A DNA stretch of 25,048 nt from a virus. Both the position numbers and the translations under genes were made by a program. The stretch covers positions 1 to 25,048 of IMG/VR virus record IMGVR_UViG_3300032157_000044; one strand, written 5' to 3'. How positions within the stretch are numbered: position 1 is the stretch's first letter; each line of letters starts with the position of its first letter. This document shows positions 243 to 25,048 of this stretch, one piece after another. The notes under the pieces were generated by a model that saw only the letters and a program-made list of their open reading frames with translations, was not told the DNA's origin and searched no databases.

Positions 243-1046
243 ATGAAGATTGCCATCATTACGCGAGGGCGGATGAACAATGTCCGCACTATGGATAGCA
301 TCCCCAGAGAGATGCTAAAAGATACGTACATCATCTGCCCCAAAGACGAGGTGTTCAGTCATGAGAAAAGATACCCAAGCGCCACGACCATCGTGGAAGA
401 CCCGGCACGAACTCTCACATACAGCGAAAAGTTTCATCGTATCGTTAATGGTCATTATCCTGAGCTTGGCAGGCGTATCCTTATTATCGATGACGACATT
501 AGATTCTCAGTGCGAAACAGCCACGACCCACGCTCGTTAGTCACGGCCTACGAAACCGAGATTAAGAACGGGTTTGATGTGCTGGCAACTATGATGGAGG
601 ACTACCCACTAGTGGGACTCCACGCCCGGTTGATGGGGAACAATGCCCCCATCGGCATCAAGGAATGCACCCGCATCAACGCCATGCAGGGGGTGAACCT
701 GGACCTAATTGGTCACATAAAACTGGACCACTGGCCCATCCTGGCCGACATGGTGCTGAACCTTACGCTGCTGATGGCTGGGCGAAAGACCGCCGTGTTC
801 TGCAACCTGTTTTGGGACCAGATTGGTCCGTCAAACGCCCCCGGTGGCTGCTCGCTTCACCGCACCCCGGAGCAACAAGCTGAGGCTGTCAGGGGGCTAG
901 CCGCCATGTTCCCTGAGGTTGTGAAGGTAGTAGAGAAGGAGGTTAAGAAGGGATGGTGGGGCGGCGTTCGTGTGGACTTCCGTGTTCAATGGCAACAAGC
1001 GTACAAACTAGGAGTAGCGAGATGCAAATCCACCAAGGCAAGCTAG
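243..1046 (+). CDS. TAGT-like glycosyltransferase (DNA base modification)
   Basis: A 267-residue protein with an N-terminal MKIAIITRGR beta-strand/loop typical of GT-A type nucleotide-sugar binding. It has an Asp triad in RRILIIDDDIRF (D83-D85), the DxD-type metal/sugar-nucleotide site. A conserved-looking middle (VGLHARLMGNN) and C-terminal half (GGCSLHRT, KKGWWGGVRVDF) resemble the TET-associated glycosyltransferase (TAGT) group described in phages with modified DNA bases. The role would be to transfer a sugar onto a hydroxymethylated or otherwise modified pyrimidine in phage DNA. An AGAGGA ribosome site lies upstream. The 3' end overlaps the next gene by 25 nt. The family call is by motif and context and the sugar donor is unknown. 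The next four genes belong to the same kind of pathway, which supports the assignment. Confidence 0.65.
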   Translation: MKIAIITRGRMNNVRTMDSIPREMLKDTYIICPKDEVFSHEKRYPSATTIVEDPARTLTYSEKFHRIVNGHYPELGRRILIIDDDIRFSVRNSHDPRSLVTAYETEIKNGFDVLATMMEDYPLVGLHARLMGNNAPIGIKECTRINAMQGVNLDLIGHIKLDHWPILADMVLNLTLLMAGRKTAVFCNLFWDQIGPSNAPGGCSLHRTPEQQAEAVRGLAAMFPEVVKVVEKEVKKGWWGGVRVDFRVQWQQAYKLGVARCKSTKAS

Positions 1047-1813
1047 GTCGTTATATTCATTACGTTAACGAGCGTGAGAGTATCTTCCGTAAGAGGGAGC
1101 TTGGACTCCCTGCCCCCTGGACCGAGGACGAAGTACTCCGTCACCACCACTTCTGCAACAACCGCCGGGAAGACGACCGTGTCACTAAAGAGCTTCGTGC
1201 GTTGCGCATTGAACTGGATCTGGCCATGCACAAGCGGCCCGAGTACTACACGCTGGCTCGCCTGTTTAACAAGGCTTCCACGGTCAAGGCTTACTATGAG
1301 GGAGGTATCGAGGCTGTCAAGGCACTCCGTGATGATGGCAGGACGATCTTCCATGTCGCCTACGTTGTCAGCACCTGTGGGGAGCGAATGGACAAGGTCG
1401 ACTATGTCGACCGGGTGGTGGCTGCTGTACGAAAGTCATATATTAGCAATCTATCGTGCAGAGAGTGCTTCGATTGCTTACGCAGCGTTGACGGACTTGG
1501 GAGCTTTCTTTCCGGCCAGGTCGTTGCGGATCTCAAGAACGACCAGTATCTCCATTATGCACCTGACTGGTATAATTTTGCGGTGATGGGGCCTGGGAGC
1601 AAGAAGGGGCTGGATATCCTCTTCGGCGTTGGTACTACGGAGCGCAACTTCACAGAGCGCCTAACGGAGCTTGCCCGCATTGTGGAGGGGGACATCCCTC
1701 ACCTGCATATGCAGGATCTGCAGAACACGCTGTGCGAGTTTCAGAAATACATGCACTACGTTGAAAATTCCCCCGGACGCAGGAGGATCTATGTTCAGCA
1801 TCAACACCCGTAA
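1022..1813 (+). CDS. HhH protein of the aGPT-PPlase / HMUDK_hel / ADDT superfamily
   Basis: A 263-residue protein starting at ATG 1022 behind AGGAG (1010-1014). It shows the signature of the alpha-glutamyl/putrescinyl-thymine pyrophosphorylase-like superfamily. This comprises VNERESIFRKRELGLPAPWT (15-34), FCNNRREDDRVT (44-55), a helix-hairpin-helix stretch SVDGLGSFLSGQVVADL (155-171) and FAVMGPGSKKGLDIL (186-200). Members act on hydroxymethyl-uracil in DNA. They are the helical domain of the 5-hmdU DNA kinase, or amino-acid:DNA transferases that displace pyrophosphate from the activated base. I cannot tell the clades apart by eye. No P-loop (GxxxxGKS/T) is present, so a kinase activity would need a partner protein. 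Its neighbours are a glycosyltransferase upstream and a thymidylate-synthase-like enzyme overlapping by 23 nt downstream. Confidence 0.75.
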   Translation: MQIHQGKLGRYIHYVNERESIFRKRELGLPAPWTEDEVLRHHHFCNNRREDDRVTKELRALRIELDLAMHKRPEYYTLARLFNKASTVKAYYEGGIEAVKALRDDGRTIFHVAYVVSTCGERMDKVDYVDRVVAAVRKSYISNLSCRECFDCLRSVDGLGSFLSGQVVADLKNDQYLHYAPDWYNFAVMGPGSKKGLDILFGVGTTERNFTERLTELARIVEGDIPHLHMQDLQNTLCEFQKYMHYVENSPGRRRIYVQHQHP

Positions 1814-2768
1814 CGTCAACTCTGCCTACAATCGGCTTCTGCCGCTTGTGAAGGCATTTGGGCAGGACGTTATGACTCGCAATGGGGTGGCGCTGGCTCT
1901 GCCAAAGCCACTCATCATTCAGTTTAGACAGCCGGAGGAGCGGGTACTATTTGACCCCTACCGCAACTGCAATCCTTTCTTCCATTTGGTGGAGGGTCTG
2001 TGGATGCTGGCAGGTCGCAACGATACAGAGTTTGTGAGGCAGTTCAACCAAAACATGATGACATACAGCGATGATGGCCTCACGTTCAATGCCGCCTACG
2101 GCCACCGCTGGCGCCAGCACTTCGGCTATGATCAGATAGCTCGCACCTGTGAAATACTATCCTCAAATCCGGAGGACAGGCGCTGCGTCATTGCAATGTG
2201 GGACGGGCACAGCGACCTTGGTGGCGGAGGACTTGACTACCCCTGCAATACCACGATCATGTGCCGGGTGATAGGGGGCGCGCTGGACTTCACTATCAGC
2301 AACCGCAGCAATGACATTATATTCGGTCTGTGCGGAGCTAACGCGGTTCATATGTCAATGCTGCAAGAATACATGGCTACTCGTATCGGCGTAGCCGTTG
2401 GCAACTGGTATCATCTGGCGAACAACGCCCATATCTACGAGCGTCATTTCCCCCTGATGGAGGCACACGTACCGAACGGGCACTGGGAGTGGATGCAGTA
2501 CCCGGCGCGTCAAACCATGGTCCAGGACTGGAAAGCCTTCGACCAGGACTGTATTGATCTGTGCAACGGGAAGGTGGATTACTTCACAGAACCCTTCTTT
2601 GACATGACCGTTGCCCCCATGGTCCAGTCGTGGCACGCTTACAAGAGGGGGGCATACGATGAGGCGCTTAACCTTGCTTCGTGTATTGAGGCGGAAGATT
2701 GGTTTAAGGCGTCAACTGAGTGGCTTGAACGAGCTGAGGAGAAACGAAATGTTAAAGATGAACATTAA
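1791..2768 (+). CDS. Thymidylate-synthase-fold enzyme, probable dUMP hydroxymethylase
   Basis: A 325-residue protein starting at ATG 1791, seven bases after an AGGAGG site inside the previous gene. It has the thymidylate synthase catalytic cysteine in LDYPCNTTIMC (C152) and the nucleotide-binding stretch NRSNDIIFGLCGANAVHMSM (171-190). In classical TS the latter reads RSxDxxLGxPFN. The GANAVH variant is common in phage enzymes that hydroxymethylate dUMP or dCMP, rather than methylate dUMP. The expected product is 5-hydroxymethyl-dUMP, the precursor of hypermodified thymine, made with methylene-tetrahydrofolate. The protein is longer than bacterial TS (about 264 residues). The first 60 residues and the region from about 210 carry the extra length. 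Ordinary dTMP synthesis cannot be excluded from sequence alone, and the surrounding modification genes favour hydroxymethylation. Confidence 0.75.
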   Translation: MFSINTRNVNSAYNRLLPLVKAFGQDVMTRNGVALALPKPLIIQFRQPEERVLFDPYRNCNPFFHLVEGLWMLAGRNDTEFVRQFNQNMMTYSDDGLTFNAAYGHRWRQHFGYDQIARTCEILSSNPEDRRCVIAMWDGHSDLGGGGLDYPCNTTIMCRVIGGALDFTISNRSNDIIFGLCGANAVHMSMLQEYMATRIGVAVGNWYHLANNAHIYERHFPLMEAHVPNGHWEWMQYPARQTMVQDWKAFDQDCIDLCNGKVDYFTEPFFDMTVAPMVQSWHAYKRGAYDEALNLASCIEAEDWFKASTEWLERAEEKRNVKDEH

Positions 2769-3270
2769 GCTGGCCCGCGAAGCTGGCAAAACGAAGCGGT
2801 ATCACATGGTGAACACCATCAAAGAGGAGTCGGTTGCTGAGCACAGCTTTAACGTCGTTAACTTGGTCCTAATCTTGAGCGAGGGCAAGGCCAGTCGGTC
2901 CTTAATCCTGGCCGCTCTTACGCATGACATGGGGGAGACTGCCATAGGAGACATCCCTAGCCAGATCAAGAAGATGCTATCCTTTGAGGCGCGGGAAGAA
3001 CTCTGCGCCAAGGAGCAGGAGGCTATTGACCGCATCCACCCCCATATTCACGCCAACATTGATGCAGATGAAAAGCACCTCCTGGAGATCTGCGATAACC
3101 TGGACGGCTTGCTCAAGTGCATCGACGAGCTGAAGATGGGCAACCAGCATATCATCCCTGTGGGAGAGCGCTACTCGGGATATCTGCAGGACCTTATCGA
3201 ACACGACCCTGCGCACCGCCTTGAGGTGGAGTGCGTTATCTCTGAATTCCGTTCGAGGTACTTGAAATGA
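2749..3270 (+). CDS. HD-domain phosphohydrolase, YfbR-like 5'-deoxynucleotidase
   Basis: A 173-residue HD-superfamily protein. The metal-binding set is visible as VAEHSFNVVN (H32), LTHDMGETAIGDIP (H59, D60, E63, D68) and ICDNLDGLL further on, matching the HD..E....GD.P pattern of YfbR-type 5'-nucleotidases that dephosphorylate dNMPs. The start at ATG 2749 is chosen because GAGGAGA (2736-2742) lies 6 nt upstream. ATG 2758 is an alternative. It overlaps the preceding TS-like gene by 20 nt and ends in an ATGA overlap with the next gene. In phages with modified bases, such nucleotidases are thought to remove the unmodified host nucleotide (dTMP or dUMP) from the pool. The substrate here is inferred from context. 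Confidence 0.75.
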   Translation: MLKMNIKLAREAGKTKRYHMVNTIKEESVAEHSFNVVNLVLILSEGKASRSLILAALTHDMGETAIGDIPSQIKKMLSFEAREELCAKEQEAIDRIHPHIHANIDADEKHLLEICDNLDGLLKCIDELKMGNQHIIPVGERYSGYLQDLIEHDPAHRLEVECVISEFRSRYLK

Positions 3271-12882: not shown

Positions 12883-13328
12883 TATGCAGTCCTCGACATT
12901 ATACTAACGACCTTAGACCATGCAGGTGAGTTTAAGATCCTGCACTGCTCTTTGGTCATAGTGTAGATGATCATATCTCCACTCTCGGAGTAGTCCTTAA
13001 CGCGGGCTTCCTCTACGAAGCCGAAGTGCTTATCAAGCTTGCTAGCTTCCTCATTGGAAGAGTTCACTTGACCAATGAGTTTCTTCACCCCCAACCGGTT
13101 GAAGGGGTAATCGAAGATGGCTGCGTACCACGCCTTGGATGGAATCTTACCTTCATCAACCCAGATGTGGGCGCTGATGCTCCATTCGTTGTAGCCGTCG
13201 TAGATTACTCCCGCTATGGCCTTCCCGTCCTCCAGGCATACGATGCACTGGGCGAGGTTGGTTGGACTGTACTTCAGTATAGTACAGATAAGGGGGAGAA
13301 ACAAGGTTGTACAATCTATCGTTTTCAT
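12882..13328 (-). CDS. GNAT-fold (acetyltransferase-like) protein
   Basis: A 148-residue protein with the GNAT layout. An initial strand pair (CIVCLEDGKAIAGVIYDGY) precedes WSISAHIWVDEGKIPS. A helix/strand motif LGVKKLIGQVNSSNEEASKL then precedes DKHFGFVEEARVKDYS, the hallmark 'neighbour residue, G-F-xx-E' end of GNAT enzymes. Acetyl-CoA-loop residues (Q/RxxGxG/A) are not clear, so activity is uncertain. Many podoviruses place such a gene beside the ejection proteins (T7 internal virion protein A is comparable in size). Its start overlaps the tail-hub stop by ATGA (13325-13328). Confidence 0.65.
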   Translation of the reverse strand: MKTIDCTTLFLPLICTILKYSPTNLAQCIVCLEDGKAIAGVIYDGYNEWSISAHIWVDEGKIPSKAWYAAIFDYPFNRLGVKKLIGQVNSSNEEASKLDKHFGFVEEARVKDYSESGDMIIYTMTKEQCRILNSPAWSKVVSIMSRTA

Positions 13329-14923
13329 ATGGCACCACCCGGTTCATAGACATATTCTACGGCTACCAATGTGGTCGCGTCGTTGGTGGCAGCCTTCATA
13401 AGTAGGGCACAAGCGAATCCCATTGCCGACACTCCGATCCACGGCCTATAGACAGTGAAGGCGGATGACCAAAACGCTTGATCCCATATTGCGACGTCCC
13501 ATATAGGGTCTGTTTGTTCAGCTCCAGGGGGCTGTGGGTTCCCCGATAGCGCCGCTGTATCATAGTCAACATTGAGCTTTAGCAGATAACTTGGGGGCTG
13601 ATCTGACTGGAATATTGGGCGAATAAGCTTCCAGTGCTTGAGTACTCCTGGGTCTCCCATATAGCTGTAGGCACTGAATAGCGAGCAGATAACTGGATCT
13701 CCCCCGGTGCCGTCCTGCTTAACATTGTCCAGATAGTTACCGCCACCGAAGATCATTACCCTGCCGTCTTCGGTACCAAAATAGAACTCTCCACGCGACA
13801 AGCGGCCAGTGTTGACTGGCATATCAATACGCGTCCACGCCCCTGTAGAGGAGTTCATAACGAACTGCACTGCCGGGGCAAGACCATTGGCGGGGATTAT
13901 TAGCGATATGGCCTGCAACGTGGGGATATTATGAAGCTCCCAGTTAGGGTTGTAAGCCTTAGATACTATGATCCTATTAAGCGTTCGGTTTACTCGCTTG
14001 GTGACAGTAGACGACACGGGAGTTTGCCCCATGGAGCCAGAGAGGATCTTACTAAGGGGGATAACACCGAGCACAGTAGTGAGATAGACATCACCACCAA
14101 ACTCACCAAAGGACCTGTCGCCAATGGGGGCTGAGGAGTAGAACACAGCCTGCAAGACCCACTGGTCGGCATCGTCTGGGTTGTCACCAGCATAGACGGC
14201 TACCTCACCAATGTTGGACACGAATACTAGCTTGTTGTCCAGACCGTCGCCGCCGTCCACTGTCCAGTCAATCATGTACAGCAGCTTGCCCCCTCGCTTG
14301 AAGACACTGGTAAGGTAGAACGGTTTAGCCTCGCCAGCTGTGGCATCTATTGGGAGATACCATGCTGTCATAGAGTCATCCTCTACGAACCAAAGGCGGC
14401 GCTTAAACGATGTCACGTGGGAAAAGGTAGATGGGTCAACGCCCTTTATCTGCCCTGGATCTACAGGAGTATCGGTCTCTGTAAACGGATAGAAGTTCAC
14501 ACCGTCATACAGTAAAGACGGATCACTAGAACCGTTCACTAGGACCAGATACTGATTAGAGACGTTGCCGAACTGAATATAGTTGAACTTCCCTTGAGAA
14601 ACTGGGTATGGAGCATCAGGCACGGTGCTTGACAATGTGACATTATAGATGCCATTATCGGTAGCAGCAAAGAGGGCATGATCGCCATTCATACGGTCAT
14701 AAGTCATGAGAGTCCTTACAGGAGCTCCCAGATTAGTGACCCATTCACGGTAGCCTTGACGGGCTTGCAGCGCCGCGTTACCGGGAATCCAGTTCATAAG
14801 CTGGATACAGAACTCCTCACCCATGTTGGCAAGGGGGTCGATATCGTTCAAGCCCCCTAACGGGGCGAGGTTTATTTTGATGTTCGATACTCTGCGCTGG
14901 GCAGAGTTCTTACCAAAGCCCAT
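13325..14923 (-). CDS. Tail hub / nozzle protein (P22 gp10-like)
   Basis: A 532-residue beta-rich protein. The beginning (LAPLGGLNDIDPLANM, then MNWIPGNAALQARQGYREW) and repeated strand patterns (ALFAATDNGIYNV, NKLVFVSNIGEVAVYAGDNP, GRVMIFGGGNYLD) suggest a beta-propeller. This is the organisation of podovirus nozzle proteins such as P22 gp10 (packaged-DNA stabilisation factor), which closes the portal/tail channel. The gene follows the adaptor gene with one base between (TGA-T-ATG) and has GGAGG inside that gene's end. The call is by fold pattern, length and gene order. Confidence 0.65.
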   Translation of the reverse strand: MGFGKNSAQRRVSNIKINLAPLGGLNDIDPLANMGEEFCIQLMNWIPGNAALQARQGYREWVTNLGAPVRTLMTYDRMNGDHALFAATDNGIYNVTLSSTVPDAPYPVSQGKFNYIQFGNVSNQYLVLVNGSSDPSLLYDGVNFYPFTETDTPVDPGQIKGVDPSTFSHVTSFKRRLWFVEDDSMTAWYLPIDATAGEAKPFYLTSVFKRGGKLLYMIDWTVDGGDGLDNKLVFVSNIGEVAVYAGDNPDDADQWVLQAVFYSSAPIGDRSFGEFGGDVYLTTVLGVIPLSKILSGSMGQTPVSSTVTKRVNRTLNRIIVSKAYNPNWELHNIPTLQAISLIIPANGLAPAVQFVMNSSTGAWTRIDMPVNTGRLSRGEFYFGTEDGRVMIFGGGNYLDNVKQDGTGGDPVICSLFSAYSYMGDPGVLKHWKLIRPIFQSDQPPSYLLKLNVDYDTAALSGNPQPPGAEQTDPIWDVAIWDQAFWSSAFTVYRPWIGVSAMGFACALLMKAATNDATTLVAVEYVYEPGGAI

Positions 14924-16944: not shown

Positions 16945-17910
16945 TTATGGGTTGACGTCAAGACGGCCTTGGAACTGGCTGCCAGAGACGGTGAGGTTGC
17001 CAGCCCATGCCAGGATCTGTACTTCAGCGTCCTGGTTGATAGCGTAGCGTTTGTTAGGCGACAAGGACACGAAGTTCCGCGCGCTGTGTGGACGATAGTG
17101 GAGGTATTTGGTGTTCAGGAAGAACGCCGTACCGGTTGGGCAGAAGCCACCGATACCACCGTCGAGCACGAAGTCGCAGTCCATGTACTTGATGGTTGGG
17201 AAGCCGAGAGCGCCTACGTCGGCGTTGGTGAAGCGTTGTTGAGCTTGCAGGGCAGCGACATAAGCCTGCCATACGACGTTGTCCGCCAGGATGATGTCTG
17301 GGCGGTCAGCACCACGTTGCAGCGAGGCCCACAGTGCGTTCATGTCAGCGAACAGTGTGGCAGTGCTCACAGCATTGCGGATCTTGGAGCGCCAGAAGGT
17401 CCAGGTGCCACGGTCAATGCCCCCGTAGACGCCAGTGGTTGGGTCGAGGGGGACAGCAGCGTCCAGGCCCACGATTTGCTTACCGCCGAACGCAGTACCG
17501 TTGGAGTAGAGACCACCGCAGATCAAGTTCTGCATGGTGGATTCGGCTACGTCGATACGAGCGGTCATGAGGTCGATCATTTGTTCTGGGCCAGCGTTCT
17601 GGAGCATTTCCAGACCAGAGATGGTGATCGGGCAAGCAGCTTGTTTGATGTCATACTGCGCAGCGGAAATCACATCTTGCGCAGCGACGGGCAGCAGGTC
17701 GTAACCGCTGTAGAACCCGGCATTGCCGTTTTCAGCGAACGACAATTCCTCGTAAATAAGACGACCACCGCTGAACGGGCGCGAACGACCGCGTTGCTGG
17801 AACTTCATCAGCATGGCGTTGTTTTTGGTGACGTTGTCTGCGACTTTGCGGCTACGCTTTTCGATCGTAGTCGCCATGATGTCTGAGACGTTGGCGTTGG
17901 CAAATGCCAT
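16945..17910 (-). CDS. Major capsid protein (HK97-fold type)
   Basis: 321 residues, ATG 17910, ribosome site GGAGGT 7 nt upstream. The sequence has the organisation of podovirus coat proteins. An N-terminal arm (SDIMATTIEKRSRKVADNV) is followed by a beta-rich E-loop-like region (RPFSGGRLIYEELSFAEN). Then come long helical and strand segments (GPEQMIDLMTARIDVAESTM, DRPDIILADNVVWQAYVAAL) and a C-terminal beta part (YAINQDAEVQILAWAGNLTV). It directly follows the scaffold gene and has its own leader with a promoter-like sequence and a hairpin over the ribosome site. The length is usual for an HK97-fold coat without a fused protease or delta domain. The call rests on gene order and overall look. 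Confidence 0.8.
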   Translation of the reverse strand: MAFANANVSDIMATTIEKRSRKVADNVTKNNAMLMKFQQRGRSRPFSGGRLIYEELSFAENGNAGFYSGYDLLPVAAQDVISAAQYDIKQAACPITISGLEMLQNAGPEQMIDLMTARIDVAESTMQNLICGGLYSNGTAFGGKQIVGLDAAVPLDPTTGVYGGIDRGTWTFWRSKIRNAVSTATLFADMNALWASLQRGADRPDIILADNVVWQAYVAALQAQQRFTNADVGALGFPTIKYMDCDFVLDGGIGGFCPTGTAFFLNTKYLHYRPHSARNFVSLSPNKRYAINQDAEVQILAWAGNLTVSGSQFQGRLDVNP

Positions 17911-19566: not shown

Positions 19567-21570
19567 TCACTTTTTGGGGTTGGAGTTTGGGTTGCCATTT
19601 GGCTTATCCTTCATCTGTTGGGCTTTGATATCGCCGGCTTCTTTAGCCTGCTCGTTCTTCATTTGGCCAGAAATAGCCTGTTGCTGGATCTTCAGTCCAA
19701 GTTCACGCTCTTTGAACTGCATTTCCTGTTGCTTCATAGCCATTTCCATGGCGAACATCTCCTGTTGATTCTGAAGTTCTTGCCGTTTGACGGCGATATC
19801 GGCCAGAGCCTGTTGCTGCTCTAACTGCATACGTTGTTGAGACTCTTGCGTGCGCAGCCCAGCCTCCATTTGCGCCTTCTGCATCTCCAGTTGACTCTGC
19901 GACTGCATTTTCTGCTGTTCCAGTTGCGATTGCATCTGAGCCTTCTGCTGTTCCAGTTGCATTTTCTGCTCTTCTGGAGTTGGCTTCGGCGGTTCTGGAT
20001 TTGCAGCCTTTGCGACCAGCGCAGCAAGCTGTTGATCGATGATACCCTCGATTTCAGCGGCCCCCTTGAAGCCAGCGACGCTGAATTTAATGACCGCAAA
20101 GAGCAGCGGGCCGAGTTCTGGGGCATTTTCCACCGCTGGGATGGCGCTAGACAGGAATTGGCTGAGATACCCGGTCAACTCCATGCGTTGGCCCTTTTCG
20201 AGCGCCCAGTCGGACTGAGTTAAGCTGTCCGGCTCTACGTCTACCTTGTACTGCGACATCTGGGGGCTGCGCAGGACCTGCACTGCCTTAGGAAGGAGCT
20301 GTTGATCGGGCTCGCTGAAGCTGCCGCAGATCGCCTGGAGCTTCTCGTCACTATAGAGGTTACTTACCAGTGTTGCGAAGATGCGCAGAATGTCACGCAC
20401 GAACTCCGACACGTCGCGCTGGTAGCCATTCATCCTCACAGAGGCGAATTGGGCCTTGATTTCCTGAGCCGAGGCGGTTTCGTACTGGTTTGACGCCCCC
20501 CTCATAATGTCGGCCATGCCAGTCACTTCGTAGAGGGTCTGCTTGACCATCTCGTACTGACCGGCCAGCGCCTGGAACACCGTGACGACCTGCTCTACAG
20601 GATACCAGTCAATCATACCCTTGGCGCCGCCACGTTCTGCGAACATTGCCCAGTTGTCAACAGGAATGAGCTTGTTTTCCTGGCCTTCCAGCATTGACCC
20701 TATCTCAGATGACGCTGCATCGTAACACCCGGCGACCTTGACAGCCCGGGAAATCAGCGACATACGGGCGTACAGGACGTCCAGTTCGTTGTACTGGTCC
20801 TGTGCGAGGTGGTAATCGGTCACAGGCAGGAATGCCGACGTCAGAAGGTTCGCTACAAGGGGGCGCGGGCAGGGGAAGAAGTCCGGCAGCTTGTAGGGGT
20901 CATCAATAGTCTTGATCGGCTTGGCCGCGCCCTTGATTATGTGGAAGACCTTCCGTGTTTTCTTTTCCCAGATCTCGTATACGCAGTATTTTCCCTCGGT
21001 AATCTCCTTGGGAGTGATGTTGTTGTCGTCCTTGATTTTAGAAGCTTCAACAAGGGCAGATTTTCCATAAAGAGCAATGACTTCCTCACCTGTGAAGTTG
21101 TGTATACGTCCAACCCACGGCACTTCCTCCCAGCATCGGGCAGGGCCGTAAATGAAATCTTCCCAGTAGAGAACGTCAGCAAAAATTTCCTCATCCTTGA
21201 ACCGAATCCAGACCTGCCCAATTCCGGGAACAAGTCGATCAAGAATTGCGTACTTGATAGAGCCTTCAAAAGACTTGGCACAATGCACCTCGTACTCTAA
21301 CGCACGTTGGAGGATGAGCGCCGCCACTCGTGCGACGTCATCCTCGTAGTCCCCCTTATGCAGCCGCGAAACATCGGGCTTAGGTAGACTGTTGAAGAGC
21401 GACTCTTTAATGGTGTTGACGTTGGCGTAGAAGATATTAACCCGCTGGAGGCCGATAACCTCATCGTCACGCTTGTCCTGGTACCGAGTGTATACTTTCC
21501 GGCCATGTTCCCTCGCCTTTTCGAAGAATTTCTCGGCCTTGGCGATACGTTTATCCCAGACACTCATCAT
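19567..21570 (-). CDS. Portal protein (P22-like) with long Gln-rich coiled-coil C-terminus
   Basis: 667 residues. The N-terminal 500 have portal features: RVNIFYANVNTIKESLFNSL near residue 45, the DYHLAQDQYNELDVLYARMS stem-type helix, and YEVTGMADIMRGASNQYETA (conserved in many podovirus portals). Residues about 530-640 are almost pure Gln/Met/Glu/Lys heptads (EEQKMQLEQQKAQMQSQLEQ...), matching the coiled-coil barrel of P22-type portals. The start ATG 21570 overlaps the terminase stop (ATGA). It forms the dodecameric DNA channel and packaging motor dock. The extreme 3' end, CCC AAA AAG TGA, can be read into a long +1 frame, so the true C-terminus may extend further (see findings). Confidence 0.85.
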   Translation of the reverse strand: MMSVWDKRIAKAEKFFEKAREHGRKVYTRYQDKRDDEVIGLQRVNIFYANVNTIKESLFNSLPKPDVSRLHKGDYEDDVARVAALILQRALEYEVHCAKSFEGSIKYAILDRLVPGIGQVWIRFKDEEIFADVLYWEDFIYGPARCWEEVPWVGRIHNFTGEEVIALYGKSALVEASKIKDDNNITPKEITEGKYCVYEIWEKKTRKVFHIIKGAAKPIKTIDDPYKLPDFFPCPRPLVANLLTSAFLPVTDYHLAQDQYNELDVLYARMSLISRAVKVAGCYDAASSEIGSMLEGQENKLIPVDNWAMFAERGGAKGMIDWYPVEQVVTVFQALAGQYEMVKQTLYEVTGMADIMRGASNQYETASAQEIKAQFASVRMNGYQRDVSEFVRDILRIFATLVSNLYSDEKLQAICGSFSEPDQQLLPKAVQVLRSPQMSQYKVDVEPDSLTQSDWALEKGQRMELTGYLSQFLSSAIPAVENAPELGPLLFAVIKFSVAGFKGAAEIEGIIDQQLAALVAKAANPEPPKPTPEEQKMQLEQQKAQMQSQLEQQKMQSQSQLEMQKAQMEAGLRTQESQQRMQLEQQQALADIAVKRQELQNQQEMFAMEMAMKQQEMQFKERELGLKIQQQAISGQMKNEQAKEAGDIKAQQMKDKPNGNPNSNPKK

Positions 21571-22949
21571 ATTCTCCCATTTCGGTTGCGGGCGGCTCGC
21601 TCGGCATAGAGTTTATCGAGGTTATAGACGTTTGTAGGTTGTTCGGCCTTCTTAGTGCTCGGTGCTCGGCCCCCGGTGCGGTCGGCCCGCTTCGCAGCGG
21701 CGGGGTTCATCGCCAGGCACAACATCCTCATGGCGTCGGCAGGGTTGGAGGCCCAATCGTGCTTAGGCTTCTCTTTGAACATCCTAAGCTTGTCATCCCA
21801 CTCTCGCTGATAGAGACGCAGAGCGTTGAGACCTACCTCAGCTACGTCCTTGTTGGTGGTGTTGAACTGAATCGTAGGCAAAGTCTTCCGCACAGCCTGG
21901 ATGCCGTCCTGAACACTGAGGTTCGGCACCAGCCTACACTTCATTTGCGCAGCGACCATGAGTTCCATTGTCGATTTGCCCGTTTGAAAGCTTTTGTTCT
22001 TGGCATCGTGGGGCAGGTAGCATTCACCGTAAGCATAGGGTCGATTCCACAGGACCTCAATGACGTCATCAACCGAGTAGCCAGAGACTGTAAAAAAGTC
22101 GATGACTCGTATGGTCTTCCCGTCATATTGGAAGAACCAGATTGATGTATCATCTGAATAGCCGATGTCCCACGCGGTATAGACCAGTCGATCGGGGTCC
22201 CACGGGAAGTCACCGACGTTTCCTTCGCTCTCCAGCTTCTTAAGAAGTTTGCCATAGTACGCCCCCCTGACGGCGGCATTAAAGTCACACTCGAACTCCT
22301 GCGCGAAGGTGTCTTCATCACTCCCGGGCAGAGTCGCCAGCATTGCCAGTTCCTCTTCGTCCAGAATGCCAGATTCGGAGGACTTGAGCATCGATTTGAA
22401 CCAACGCTCGTCGTTCGCAGCTTTATTCCACAGCGTGTGGAAGTGGTTCGGCCCCTTCGGCGTCCCGATAAAGACGCACCACCCTTTCCGGTCGGCCAGT
22501 GTGGGGGCGATAACCTCACCGAAGAGCCGAGGACTCATGTCACCGTACTCGTCCAGAATCACCCCGTCGTTGTACACCCCCCTCAGGCTGTCGGGGTTGT
22601 CTGCTCCGTAGAGCCTAACCGTCGCTCCGTTCTTAAGCAGGACACTGAGTTCGGACTCCATTATCTTTTCAATGACAGGCGCAGCGTAGAGTTTCAAGTA
22701 GTTCCACGCTACGTCCTTAGCCTGCTTGTAGAAGGGCGCGACGTAGCTGTATCGCGGCATGGCCAGTGGGCATTGCAGCGCCTTGTCGATCAAGTCGTTG
22801 ATGCACGCGACGGTCTTACCAGCTCGCCGGTGCCAGACCAGGATAGCGAAGCGCTCCTTCCGAGCATGGAAGGCCATGGCGTGCTCGCGTGGACGGTACG
22901 CCGACTCTACCACTGTCTTGGTCTGGTCAGACCTCCGCGTGTCAGACAT
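21567..22949 (-). CDS. terL: Terminase large subunit (ATPase-nuclease)
   Basis: 460 residues. ATPase domain: Walker A WHRRAGKT (39-46), Walker B VILDEY (130-135, D133 and catalytic E134), and coupling motif IGTP (161-164). Nuclease domain: AWDIGYSDDTSIW (D261 first metal ligand, D267), YLPHDAKNKSF (D315), and a late NPADAMRM acid. It pumps DNA into the procapsid through the portal and cuts the concatemer. The start at 22949 has GAGG 9 nt upstream and overlaps the small-subunit gene by 8 nt. All motifs look intact. Confidence 0.95.
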   Translation of the reverse strand: MSDTRRSDQTKTVVESAYRPREHAMAFHARKERFAILVWHRRAGKTVACINDLIDKALQCPLAMPRYSYVAPFYKQAKDVAWNYLKLYAAPVIEKIMESELSVLLKNGATVRLYGADNPDSLRGVYNDGVILDEYGDMSPRLFGEVIAPTLADRKGWCVFIGTPKGPNHFHTLWNKAANDERWFKSMLKSSESGILDEEELAMLATLPGSDEDTFAQEFECDFNAAVRGAYYGKLLKKLESEGNVGDFPWDPDRLVYTAWDIGYSDDTSIWFFQYDGKTIRVIDFFTVSGYSVDDVIEVLWNRPYAYGECYLPHDAKNKSFQTGKSTMELMVAAQMKCRLVPNLSVQDGIQAVRKTLPTIQFNTTNKDVAEVGLNALRLYQREWDDKLRMFKEKPKHDWASNPADAMRMLCLAMNPAAAKRADRTGGRAPSTKKAEQPTNVYNLDKLYAERAARNRNGRI

Positions 22950-23274
22950 CTGTCACGTCCTCGTCCACCTGGACCCCGCGATTAAGCGGCGACTGCGGGA
23001 CGTTGGACCGATATTCCAGAATCTGCCCTGCGATGGCCGCTCCGGTGTCCTTCGGTGCGAGTTTCATCAGCAAATCAAGGAACTTTCCGTAGTTCTCTTC
23101 CTGGTTGGCCCAGATGGCGAGTCTGGGGACGCCCCCCACCATCTCGAAAGTCTCGATAAACGCTTGCTCGATCTGTTTCCTACTCCAAATCTTCTCTACG
23201 CCCCCCTTCTGGAGGCGGCGACGCTCTCTATCAGAGAGCTGGTTCTGTAGGGCAACGTTGAAGTCTGTGGGCAT
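22942..23274 (-). CDS. Probable terminase small subunit
   Basis: 110 residues with a strong ribosome site (GGGAGGT, 6 nt before ATG 23274). Basic helical N-terminus (LSDRERRRLQKGGVEKIWSR) compatible with DNA binding, helix-rich core (IEQAFIETFEMVGG, NYGKFLDLLMKLAPK) and an acidic C-terminus (VQVDEDVTDV). The size, its place just before terL, and the 8-nt overlap fit a small terminase that recognises the packaging site. I do not see a diagnostic HTH by eye, so this is mostly context. It is the first gene of the late operon. Confidence 0.6.
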   Translation of the reverse strand: MPTDFNVALQNQLSDRERRRLQKGGVEKIWSRKQIEQAFIETFEMVGGVPRLAIWANQEENYGKFLDLLMKLAPKDTGAAIAGQILEYRSNVPQSPLNRGVQVDEDVTDV

Positions 23275-23332: not shown

Positions 23333-23361
23333 ATCGTAGTTCGCAGTACCTGGACTAGCAA
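23333..23361 (-). promoter_or_regulatory. Weak sigma-70-like alternative promoter before the terminase genes
   Basis: On the - strand TTGCTA (23361-23356, 4/6) and TACGAT (23338-23333, 4/6) are 17 bp apart. It overlaps the -12 part of the sigma-54-like site (TTGCT). It is a competing explanation for late-operon transcription and the weaker of the two matches. Confidence 0.25.
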
Positions 23362-23372
23362 GGAGTGTGCCA
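23357..23372 (-). promoter_or_regulatory. Sigma-54 (RpoN)-like promoter of the late operon
   Basis: On the - strand TGGCACACTCCTTGCT matches the RpoN consensus TGGCACG-N4-TTGCW at all positions but the seventh (A for G), with correct GG-10-GC spacing. The predicted start is about 23346, giving a 70-nt leader before the small terminase gene. The location, immediately ahead of the morphogenesis operon, is what makes it credible. Confidence 0.5.
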
Positions 23373-23915: not shown

Positions 23916-24404
23916 TTAGGCTTCGACGGCTGGCGCTTCGACCGGGGCTTCGACGGCCGCTGGCGCTACGGTTTCGAACTTGGCTTGGAAAGTGCGGAGC
24001 CAGCCGGTTGGCGCCAGATTGCCGGGGGTGCGATTAGCCCCCTTGTGCCATGCCATTTCCGCCGCCAGTACATTGGCCAGCACTACCGGGCGCGGCTGGC
24101 CAATGCTAGCCTGCAAGGCCGCCAGAGCGGCAGCACGGGCCGTACCGGCACGCACGTTAGGGTTTGCACAGCCTACCAACACCGGCACGCTGGCGGGGCT
24201 TACAGCGCCTTGCGGGCTATGCGGCGCTACGGATTTGCGGGCCATGGTATTTTCGACCGTTTTGGCGTAGTTAGGCGCTGGGACCCAGACCGGGGCTTCG
24301 ACTGGCGCTGGCGGGCCTACAAGAACTTCGACCGGCGCTACGGTTTCGACAGCTACGGTTTCGACAGCTACGGTTTCGACTACTGCTTTATTGGACTTTG
24401 CCAT
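23916..24404 (-). CDS. Protein with VETVA repeats flanking a small central domain
   Basis: 162 residues from ATG 24404, where AAGGTG lies about 8 nt upstream. A longer frame to 24491 has no ribosome site. After MAKSNKAV come three VETVA repeats and Pro/Val/Glu-rich sequence (about 9-45). A central ordered part follows (about 48-140, including ARAAALAALQASIGQPRPVV, NVLAAEMAWHKGANRTP and LAPTGWLRTFQAKFETVAP), then another Ala/Pro/Val/Glu tail. The repeats correspond to 15-bp DNA repeats. I do not recognise the family. It is the first gene left of the sigma-54-like promoter region and may be expressed early or highly. Separate from the terminase operon because of two terminators. Confidence 0.6.
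   Translation of the reverse strand: MAKSNKAVVETVAVETVAVETVAPVEVLVGPPAPVEAPVWVPAPNYAKTVENTMARKSVAPHSPQGAVSPASVPVLVGCANPNVRAGTARAAALAALQASIGQPRPVVLANVLAAEMAWHKGANRTPGNLAPTGWLRTFQAKFETVAPAAVEAPVEAPAVEA
24337..24381 (+). repeat. 15-bp tandem repeats inside the VETVA coding region
   Basis: GCTACGGTTTCGACA occurs at 24337-24351 and 24352-24366, and with a final T at 24367-24381. A 14-base partial copy lies near the other end of the gene (23965-23978). The copies encode the VETVA units on the - strand. Such repeats can vary in number by slippage. Confidence 0.8.
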
Positions 24405-24459
24405 GATGATGCACCTTATAGTAAGTGGCCACTGGACCCTATGCCCTAGTGGTAGTACC

Positions 24460-24488
24460 ATTAAAACATGGTGAGTTTTCCAGTGCAA
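24460..24488 (-). promoter_or_regulatory. Weak sigma-70-like promoter for the VETVA-repeat gene
   Basis: On the - strand TTGCAC (24488-24483, 3/6) and TTTAAT (24465-24460, 5/6) have a 17-bp spacer. The start would be near 24453, 49 nt before ATG 24404. A 10-bp palindrome AGTGGCCACT (24424-24433) lies in the leader. Confidence 0.3.
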
Positions 24489-24511
24489 CAACTAGTTAGC
24501 TATATTGAACG

Positions 24512-24530: not shown

Positions 24531-24568
24531 TTTCGCCCCCCTTATACCCGCGATGCGCGCGCCCGCGT

Positions 24569-24584
24569 AGCAAATCCCGTGCCA
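24569..24584 (-). promoter_or_regulatory. Sigma-54 (RpoN) promoter, leftward
   Basis: On the - strand TGGCACGGGATTTGCT, preceded by T, matches the -24/-12 consensus YTGGCACG-N4-TTGCW at every fixed position. The predicted start is about 24558 and the first gene leftward begins at 24404. The repeat array at 24696-24838 lies 110-255 bp upstream, the usual distance for activator (bEBP) binding sites. Confidence 0.6.
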
Positions 24585-24638
24585 AGAACGTGGCCCGACG
24601 CACGCCGCTCGGTCCGGTGGGAGTGACGTGCTACATCT

Positions 24639-24654
24639 TGGCACGGCGCTTGCA
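24639..24654 (+). promoter_or_regulatory. Sigma-54 (RpoN) promoter, rightward copy 1
   Basis: TGGCACGGCGCTTGCA, preceded by T, agrees with YTGGCACG-N4-TTGCW at all fixed positions. Predicted start near 24665. No gene follows to the right within the window. Confidence 0.55.
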
Positions 24655-24668
24655 TGGTGCGTAGTTCT

Positions 24669-24684
24669 TGGCACGGCGCTTGCA
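24669..24684 (+). promoter_or_regulatory. Sigma-54 (RpoN) promoter, rightward copy 2
   Basis: The same 16-base sequence as copy 1, 30 bp further right. Predicted start near 24695, exactly where the five-unit repeat array begins. Tandem duplication of a consensus RpoN site is unusual. Confidence 0.55.
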
Positions 24685-24695
24685 TGGTACGGAAT

Positions 24696-24838
24696 CTGTG
24701 GCACGTGAGTGGTGAGCTTCAGTCTGTAGCACGTGAGTGGTGAGCTTCAGTCTGTAGCACGTGAGTGGTGAGCTTCAAGGGTCTGTGGCACGTGTCTGGT
24801 GAGCTTCAAACTCTGTACCACGTGTCTGGCGTGCTTCA
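24696..24838 (+). repeat. Five-unit 26-bp direct repeat array with GCACGT core
   Basis: Units start at 24696, 24724, 24752, 24783 and 24813 (spacings 28, 28, 31, 30; spacers 2-5 nt). The consensus is CTGTRGCACGTG, then AGT or TCT, then GGTGAGCTTCA. Units 2 and 3 are identical, and unit 5 is the most diverged (TACCACGTG, GGCGTGCTTCA). All contain the palindrome CACGTG. The first part (CTGTGGCACG) resembles the TCTTGGCACG of the adjacent sigma-54-like repeats and keeps their roughly 30-bp period. Possible activator-binding sites, decayed promoters or origin iterons. Confidence 0.9.
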
Positions 24839-25048
24839 ACTCGGGTGGACGCGACCGAATGAAATGAGCGCCCCCATGAGCGCCCGAAAGTCCATTTTGA
24901 TTGAGCTGAGGGCCGAGTTCTTAGTCCTGGGAGGTTGAAAAGAGGCGGAGGATTCCGCCCCCAAGTGTGCCGCGCCCGGCGCCAAAAATACACAATTACA
25001 GACTACACATTGCCCAAACCATTTTGCAAATGCACTATGCTCACTCCG

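Follow-up and report, generated by a model that had tools for sequence, protein, structure and literature searches.

Clustered sigma-54-type sites near the packaging genes of a podovirus-related phage, and their occurrence in other phages

The usual view is that phages either redirect the host's housekeeping sigma-70 polymerase or supply a polymerase of their own. Sigma-54 depends for the initiation of transcription on an ATP-driven activator, which signals conditions such as nitrogen status and envelope stress. The 25-kb virus record analyzed here (the window, 25,048 nt in full) bears at its right end an array of sigma-54-type sites, which a first-pass annotation had placed in a divergent control region, and the locus raises the question of what reads such sites in a phage genome and whether they act as promoters.

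Sites and layout of the control region

A scan of the whole window with TGGCACGNNNNTTGCW (TGGCACG-N4-TTGCW), allowing no mismatch, returned only L1, R1 and R2 (Table 1), the same three sites that the first-pass annotation had listed, against 0.0075 expected under a first-order Markov model of the window; the earlier estimate of about 0.006 is correct at equal base frequencies. When R is allowed at -20, as is standard, a fourth exact site that the annotation had not listed, L2, is found just upstream of terS, and four sites are observed where the same model expects 0.0225. All of them have the GG of the -24 and the GC of the -12 element, and N4 separates TGGCACR from TTGCW. A matrix derived from 42 E. 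coli sigma-54 ChIP sites in intergenic regions (data of PMC4591121) ranks these four as the top matches in the 25 kb (16.6 to 18.1, L1 being the best), all above the E. coli leave-one-out median of 15.0, and the Markov expectation at a score of at least 16 is 0.25 in the window.

Table 1. Features of the window discussed in the text
Feature	Position	Strand	Remarks
L1, sigma-54 site TGGCACGGGATTTGCT	24569..24584	-	predicted +1 ~24558, 154 nt from the small ORF, toward small ORF and late operon; matrix score 18.1
R1, sigma-54 site TGGCACGGCGCTTGCA	24639..24654	+	predicted +1 ~24665, away from late operon; matrix score 16.6
R2, sigma-54 site, core identical to R1	24669..24684	+	30-bp tandem copy; predicted +1 ~24695; matrix score 16.6
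L2, sigma-54 site TGGCACACTCCTTGCT	23357..23372	-	predicted +1 ~23346, 72 nt before terS ATG; matrix score 17.0
GC-rich block ACGCGGGCGCGCGCATCGC	24550..24568	-	directly downstream of L1; common to several relatives in either orientation
Five tandem 28-31 bp repeats TCTGTRGCACGTGNSTGGTGAGCTTCA	24695-24839	+	abut the rightward sites; GGCACG-like cores too
Candidate intrinsic terminator	24866..24885	-	for leftward transcription coming from the right; consensus scan only
Small ORF, 162 aa	23916..24404	-	from ATG at 24404; Ala/Pro-rich N-terminus; between array and terS; conserved beside array in relatives
terS-like small terminase subunit	22942..23274	-	by position and conservation
terL, terminase large subunit	21567..22949	-	first recognizable late-operon gene; PHROG match
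Portal	19567-21570		leftward late gene
Major capsid	16945-17910		leftward late gene
Amidase	13325-14923		leftward late gene
Thymidylate-synthase-like, glucosyltransferase-like and dATP-triphosphohydrolase-like families	243-3270	+	nucleotide-metabolism genes, rightward

Chance, or a repeat artefact in which one good site was multiplied by local duplication within a GC-rich region, has to be weighed at this point, as R1 and R2 form a tandem duplication of 30 bp (90% identity), so that these two sites are not independent of each other, and the neighboring repeats share GGCACG. However, L1, L2 and R1 differ in N4 and in their flanks, the expected number of sites is 0.0075-0.0225, and the sites recur in relatives and, with controls, in hundreds of IMG/VR stretches. 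This explanation is refuted by conservation and controls, and we give it practically no weight.

The phage is related to podoviruses through its capsid, portal and terminase; no integrase (PF00589) was detected in the window or in eight relatives, and the control region has no nucleotide match among 50,697 phage records. Neither the small ORF nor the terS-like gene has a PHROG match. Among the relatives, taken as contigs whose TerL is 59-90% identical, exact or one-mismatch sites are present upstream of the late operon in G001, G003/G004, G005, G006, G007 and G009, and also in L182, L196 and L221, which are relatives found via the capsid. N4 and flanks vary between them and the -24 and -12 elements are kept; in G001, the closest relative, the counterpart of L1 reads TGGCACGTCTTTTGCT. 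Conservation of the -24/-12 boxes, which the first-pass annotation had proposed as a test, is accordingly seen in G001, G003-G007, G009, L182, L196 and L221, and together with the four top matrix scores this recurrence bears out the claim that the sites are sigma-54-type and clustered for reasons other than chance. In G008 (TerL 76% identical) no sigma-54 cluster is present, which counts against a promoter function.

A divergent layout of the control region is only a possibility, since the right-hand genes of the window lie beyond the contig end, and in relatives the large gene to the right of the array, for a VapE/primase-like helicase, is oriented like the late genes. The array region of the relatives is a boundary between same-direction modules. 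Relative to the predicted L1 start, the 28-31 bp repeats lie about 137-281 bp upstream, an enhancer-like distance, and are candidate upstream activating sites; similar repeats flank the sigma-54 sites of G001, G005 and G009. Some likeness of the repeats to the NtrC box (GCAC-N7-GTGC) was noticed, but it is too weak to claim a known binding motif. In G001 (L160:1310-1360) the place of the rightward pair is taken by two direct TCTTGGTATACC repeats with a perfect GGTATACC palindrome. The GC-rich block (TTGCTACGCG..GCGCGCAT) directly 3' of the sigma-54 site (window 24550-24584) is conserved in G001, G004, G005, G009 and L281, and the alignment of sites from the relatives shows site and block together, in one or the other orientation with respect to the late genes. 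The region of L1 from -11 to +1 is very GC-rich, which again speaks against a sigma-54 promoter. By eye, the small ORF is preceded in several relatives by a sigma-70-like promoter that includes an inverted repeat of the GGTNNNACC type (corresponding to window 24404-24500), and it may thus have a second promoter beside the sigma-54 array; given this sigma-70-like element in relatives, late expression may not depend on sigma-54.

Probable recognition by the host sigma-54 polymerase

The consensus, spacing and substitution pattern of the phage sites are the same as those of bacterial sigma-54 (RpoN) promoters of the -24/-12 type, such as those of the E. coli hycA/hypA and zraP/zraS regions. In 197 one-mismatch sites near clusters, the tolerated changes were C-21 to T (90/90) and G-20 to A (54/55), some change was seen at T-26, T-15 and C-12, and changes were rare at G-25, G-24, C-23, T-14 and G-13 (once each) and at A-22 (twice). 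Compared by sequence, this is the tolerance pattern of sigma-54, and the position-specific degeneracy of the phage sites agrees with that of experimental sigma-54 sites (PMC4591121 Tables 1 and 2). Moreover, the six positions that were not used for selection (-27, -19 to -16 and -11) correlate with the E. coli sigma-54 ChIP sites with r = 0.725 (permutation p = 0.0002, a statistic that ignores the relatedness of the phages). A phage protein with a mere resemblance to sigma-54 is not expected to copy both the tolerance pattern and the unselected positions.

A phage-encoded binder, namely a regulator, a replication initiator or the small terminase, for which the motif would be an operator, iteron or packaging-site repeat with no more than a likeness to sigma-54 promoters, is nevertheless suggested by some of the observations: the motif adjoins terS and is repeated in both orientations, the array of the contig L283 contains iteron-like 18-bp units, and relatives have the VapE/primase-like replication gene beside the region. 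Apart from the match at unselected positions and the exact set of tolerated substitutions, two further points weigh against it. The commonest family near 190 clusters is terL itself and a terS-like family is found in only 20 of these loci, so that no single candidate binder recurs, and in the groups looked at the motif adjoins small terminases that are dissimilar. We consider a phage-protein motif quite improbable. One terS-like protein, encoded beside a ten-site array (L463:3923-4309), carries AT-hook-like motifs at its N-terminus (KKRGRGRPRKS and GRPKG).

Genes for the components of a sigma-54 system were also searched for in the phages. The sigma-54 DNA-binding domain (PF04552) was found in 0/15 records, with the positive controls detected, and the activator domain PF00158 had no match above cut-off in 52 records (the window, 9 relatives and 42 cluster-bearing contigs); one sub-threshold fragment in G071 (14.8 bits, cut-off 20.2) was not accepted as a phage-encoded activator. 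A T7-type RNA polymerase (PF00940) was present in none of 48 cluster-bearing or related contigs, a set that does not include the window, and the positive control, Pseudomonas phage PollyC, was recovered with E = 1.4e-90. The number of sites, which is non-random, and their spacing, substitution pattern, clustering and position lead us to regard them as sigma-54 elements, and on this comparison it is very probably the host sigma-54 (RpoN) polymerase that recognizes them.

A wider class of clusters in phages

IMG/VR was searched for pairs of TGGCACG-N4-TTGC within 30 bp, either in tandem or face to face. Tandem pairs were found in at least 120 stretches and face-to-face pairs in 108, whereas the reversed tandem pattern gave 0 stretches and a tandem pattern with an N5 spacer gave 1, which indicates that the exact spacing is required; the loci were incompletely de-duplicated and related phages share arrays, so that the counts do not represent independent events. 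The tandem pairs have periods of 24-28 and 35-45 bp, and in 63/81 facing pairs the gap is 3-8 bp although 1-30 bp was allowed. The cluster in the window is one member of a class that is widespread and has fixed geometries, an aspect that lay outside the first-pass annotation.

A palindrome or hairpin origin of the facing pairs was ruled out, because their N4 segments are complementary at about the level of chance (among 81 pairs, 0/4 positions in 28, 1/4 in 29, 2/4 in 12, 3/4 in 9 and 4/4 in 3). A bacterial or prophage origin was rejected, as the facing pattern occurs in only 11 stretches of 257 billion bases of prokaryote genomes; 8 of them have gaps above 20 bp, mostly with fully matching N4 segments, and this rarity and wide spacing in prokaryotes mean that the close-gap form is largely viral. 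Weak similarities of arrays to Vibrio and Pseudomonas phages and to Streptomyces or Mycobacterium phages were set aside (E-values of 0.2 or above).

Within 4 kb of terL lie 63 of the 190 cluster loci, and in 62 of these 63 the cluster is upstream of terL, at a median distance of about 1.3-1.5 kb. The nearest ORF on the far side, by a crude ORF call, runs in the opposite direction in 31 loci and in the same direction in 19, and is replaced by the contig edge in 13. Among tandem-selected clusters, 69 sites point away from terL and 29 toward it, which is at odds with a simple promoter role. From the position upstream of terL and the mixed directions of the sites it follows that the clusters belong to a control region close to the genes for packaging and cannot all be promoters of the terminase. 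L283 and L284, whose terS is 41% identical, carry a tandem array, which in L283 comprises 13 sites above the matrix threshold, mostly 18-29 bp apart. In arrays of this type the sites are packed too densely for all of them to be occupied as promoters at once, which also tells against promoters. On a 55.9-kb contig (L340:1964-2270), about 10 sigma-54-type sites in one direction occupy about 300 bp ahead of a rightward ORF near 2498.

Some isolated phages also carry such sites. Vibrio parahaemolyticus phages pVp-1 (Demerecviridae) and VF16 have two tandem sites and one facing site, all intergenic (TTGGCACGATTTTTGAC, ATGGCACGACTTTTGCA and TTGGCATGAAATCTGCT in VF16). Unlike the window, these are unrelated phages of 110-120 kb in which the sites are not annotated as promoters, and the VF16 array lies in the terminal repeat and not upstream of terL. 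In PollyC two weaker sites, both leftward, lie where genes are sparse. All three isolates have named hosts, and the arrays of pVp-1 and VF16 make the sigma-54 reading directly testable; the RpoN regulon of V. parahaemolyticus has been described (PMC9817140). Conversely, Stenotrophomonas phage BUCT555, P26218, Mx8 and RHph_I3_18 have no such array, which again weighs against the promoter reading. BUCT555 is the closest isolate by capsid (76.5%) and has the same gene order, with converging early and late modules, but in the place of a sigma-54 array its control region shows, by eye, a sigma-70-like TTGACG...TACAAT.

Promoters, decoys or roadblocks

The most likely reading of the sites, which we hold with some reserve, is that they would be promoters fired by an activator of the host. 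In this arrangement the host sigma-54 holoenzyme would sit as silent closed complexes before the packaging and late genes and, at R1/R2, as closed complexes facing away from them, until an active ATP-driven activator of the host (bEBP) opened them; the 28-31 bp repeats would be the best candidates for its binding. Transcripts from L1 and L2, both at what may be an ordinary promoter distance, would then cover the small ORF and the terS-terL operon, and those from R1/R2, for which the window shows no gene, would run the other way. As the right-hand gene of the relatives is co-directional with the late genes, R1/R2 may yield antisense or non-coding RNA. In other phages the sites would have been multiplied in tandem or set face to face, with -12 elements 3-8 bp apart, and the start points of a facing pair would by arithmetic lie about 15-20 bp apart on opposite strands, a bidirectional-promoter arrangement to which one polymerase at a time could bind.

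Bidirectional sigma-70 promoters with facing -10 elements are known, and share with the phage pairs the facing core elements, which would give opposite-strand starts roughly 15-20 bp apart; they differ from these in the sigma factor and in that sigma-54 needs an activator. In E. coli, the hycA/hypA and zraP/zraS intergenic regions contain oppositely directed sigma-54 sites about 130-155 bp apart (PMC4591121 Table 1), whereas the phage sites are many per region, often face each other at 3-8 bp or follow in tandem at about 26 bp and, unlike bacterial sigma-54 promoters, have no cognate activator gene nearby.

Alternatively, the sites could bind host sigma-54 polymerase without serving as ordinary promoters, either as a decoy that drains sigma-54 while the genome multiplies or as closed-complex roadblocks between early and late regions. 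This accounts better than the promoter reading for the dense arrays, which reach about 10-18 sites with spacings down to 18 bp and include mutually exclusive facing pairs, and for the bias of the tandem-selected clusters away from terL. The missing activator gene in the 52 records is consistent with it, and in E. coli sigma-54 is documented to bind also where no promoter function is evident (PMC4591121). Yet a pure decoy needs no fixed place and 62/63 clusters lie upstream of terL, and the window contains four sites only, one of them with a predicted start 72 nt before terS, a plausible promoter distance. A decoy or roadblock is a possible explanation, though a less likely one than activator-fired promoters.

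The more general proposal can be put forward only tentatively, at somewhat less than even chances: that these phages share a widespread, undescribed control element in which dense sigma-54 arrays, often built of facing bidirectional units, would load silent host holoenzyme before the packaging genes, to be fired in both directions by a stress or nutrient activator of the host. The occurrence of dense, regularly spaced sigma-54 clusters in many unrelated environmental phages suggests, at the level of sequence, genes hooked to the stress-and-nutrition switch of the host. Sigma-54 promoters are already known, and it is their clustered, facing arrays in phages that appear to be new. In the open-access literature searched, which leaves out most subscription papers and bioRxiv, no description of sigma-54 sites or arrays in the genomes of lytic phages was found, nor of lytic phages driven by sigma-54, in agreement with the remark in the first-pass annotation that no established lytic podovirus is known to work in this way. 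If many phages rely on sigma-54, their expression would be gated by host physiology, which would affect the timing at which infection progresses in nature and under nutrient-poor conditions, and rpoN would be a host factor for these phages or a locus of resistance against them. The phage arrays also provide natural material on how crowded and facing sigma-54 promoters behave.

Two minor observations concern the gene content of these phages. In BUCT555 a gene annotated as an integrase lies inside the replication module (L157:11687-13957), array-bearing relatives have no PF00589 match, and the label may be wrong. In the rightward nucleotide-metabolism region of the window, PHROG matches to a beta-glucosyl-HMC-alpha-glucosyltransferase-like protein, thymidylate synthase and dATP triphosphohydrolase suggest modified bases in the phage DNA.
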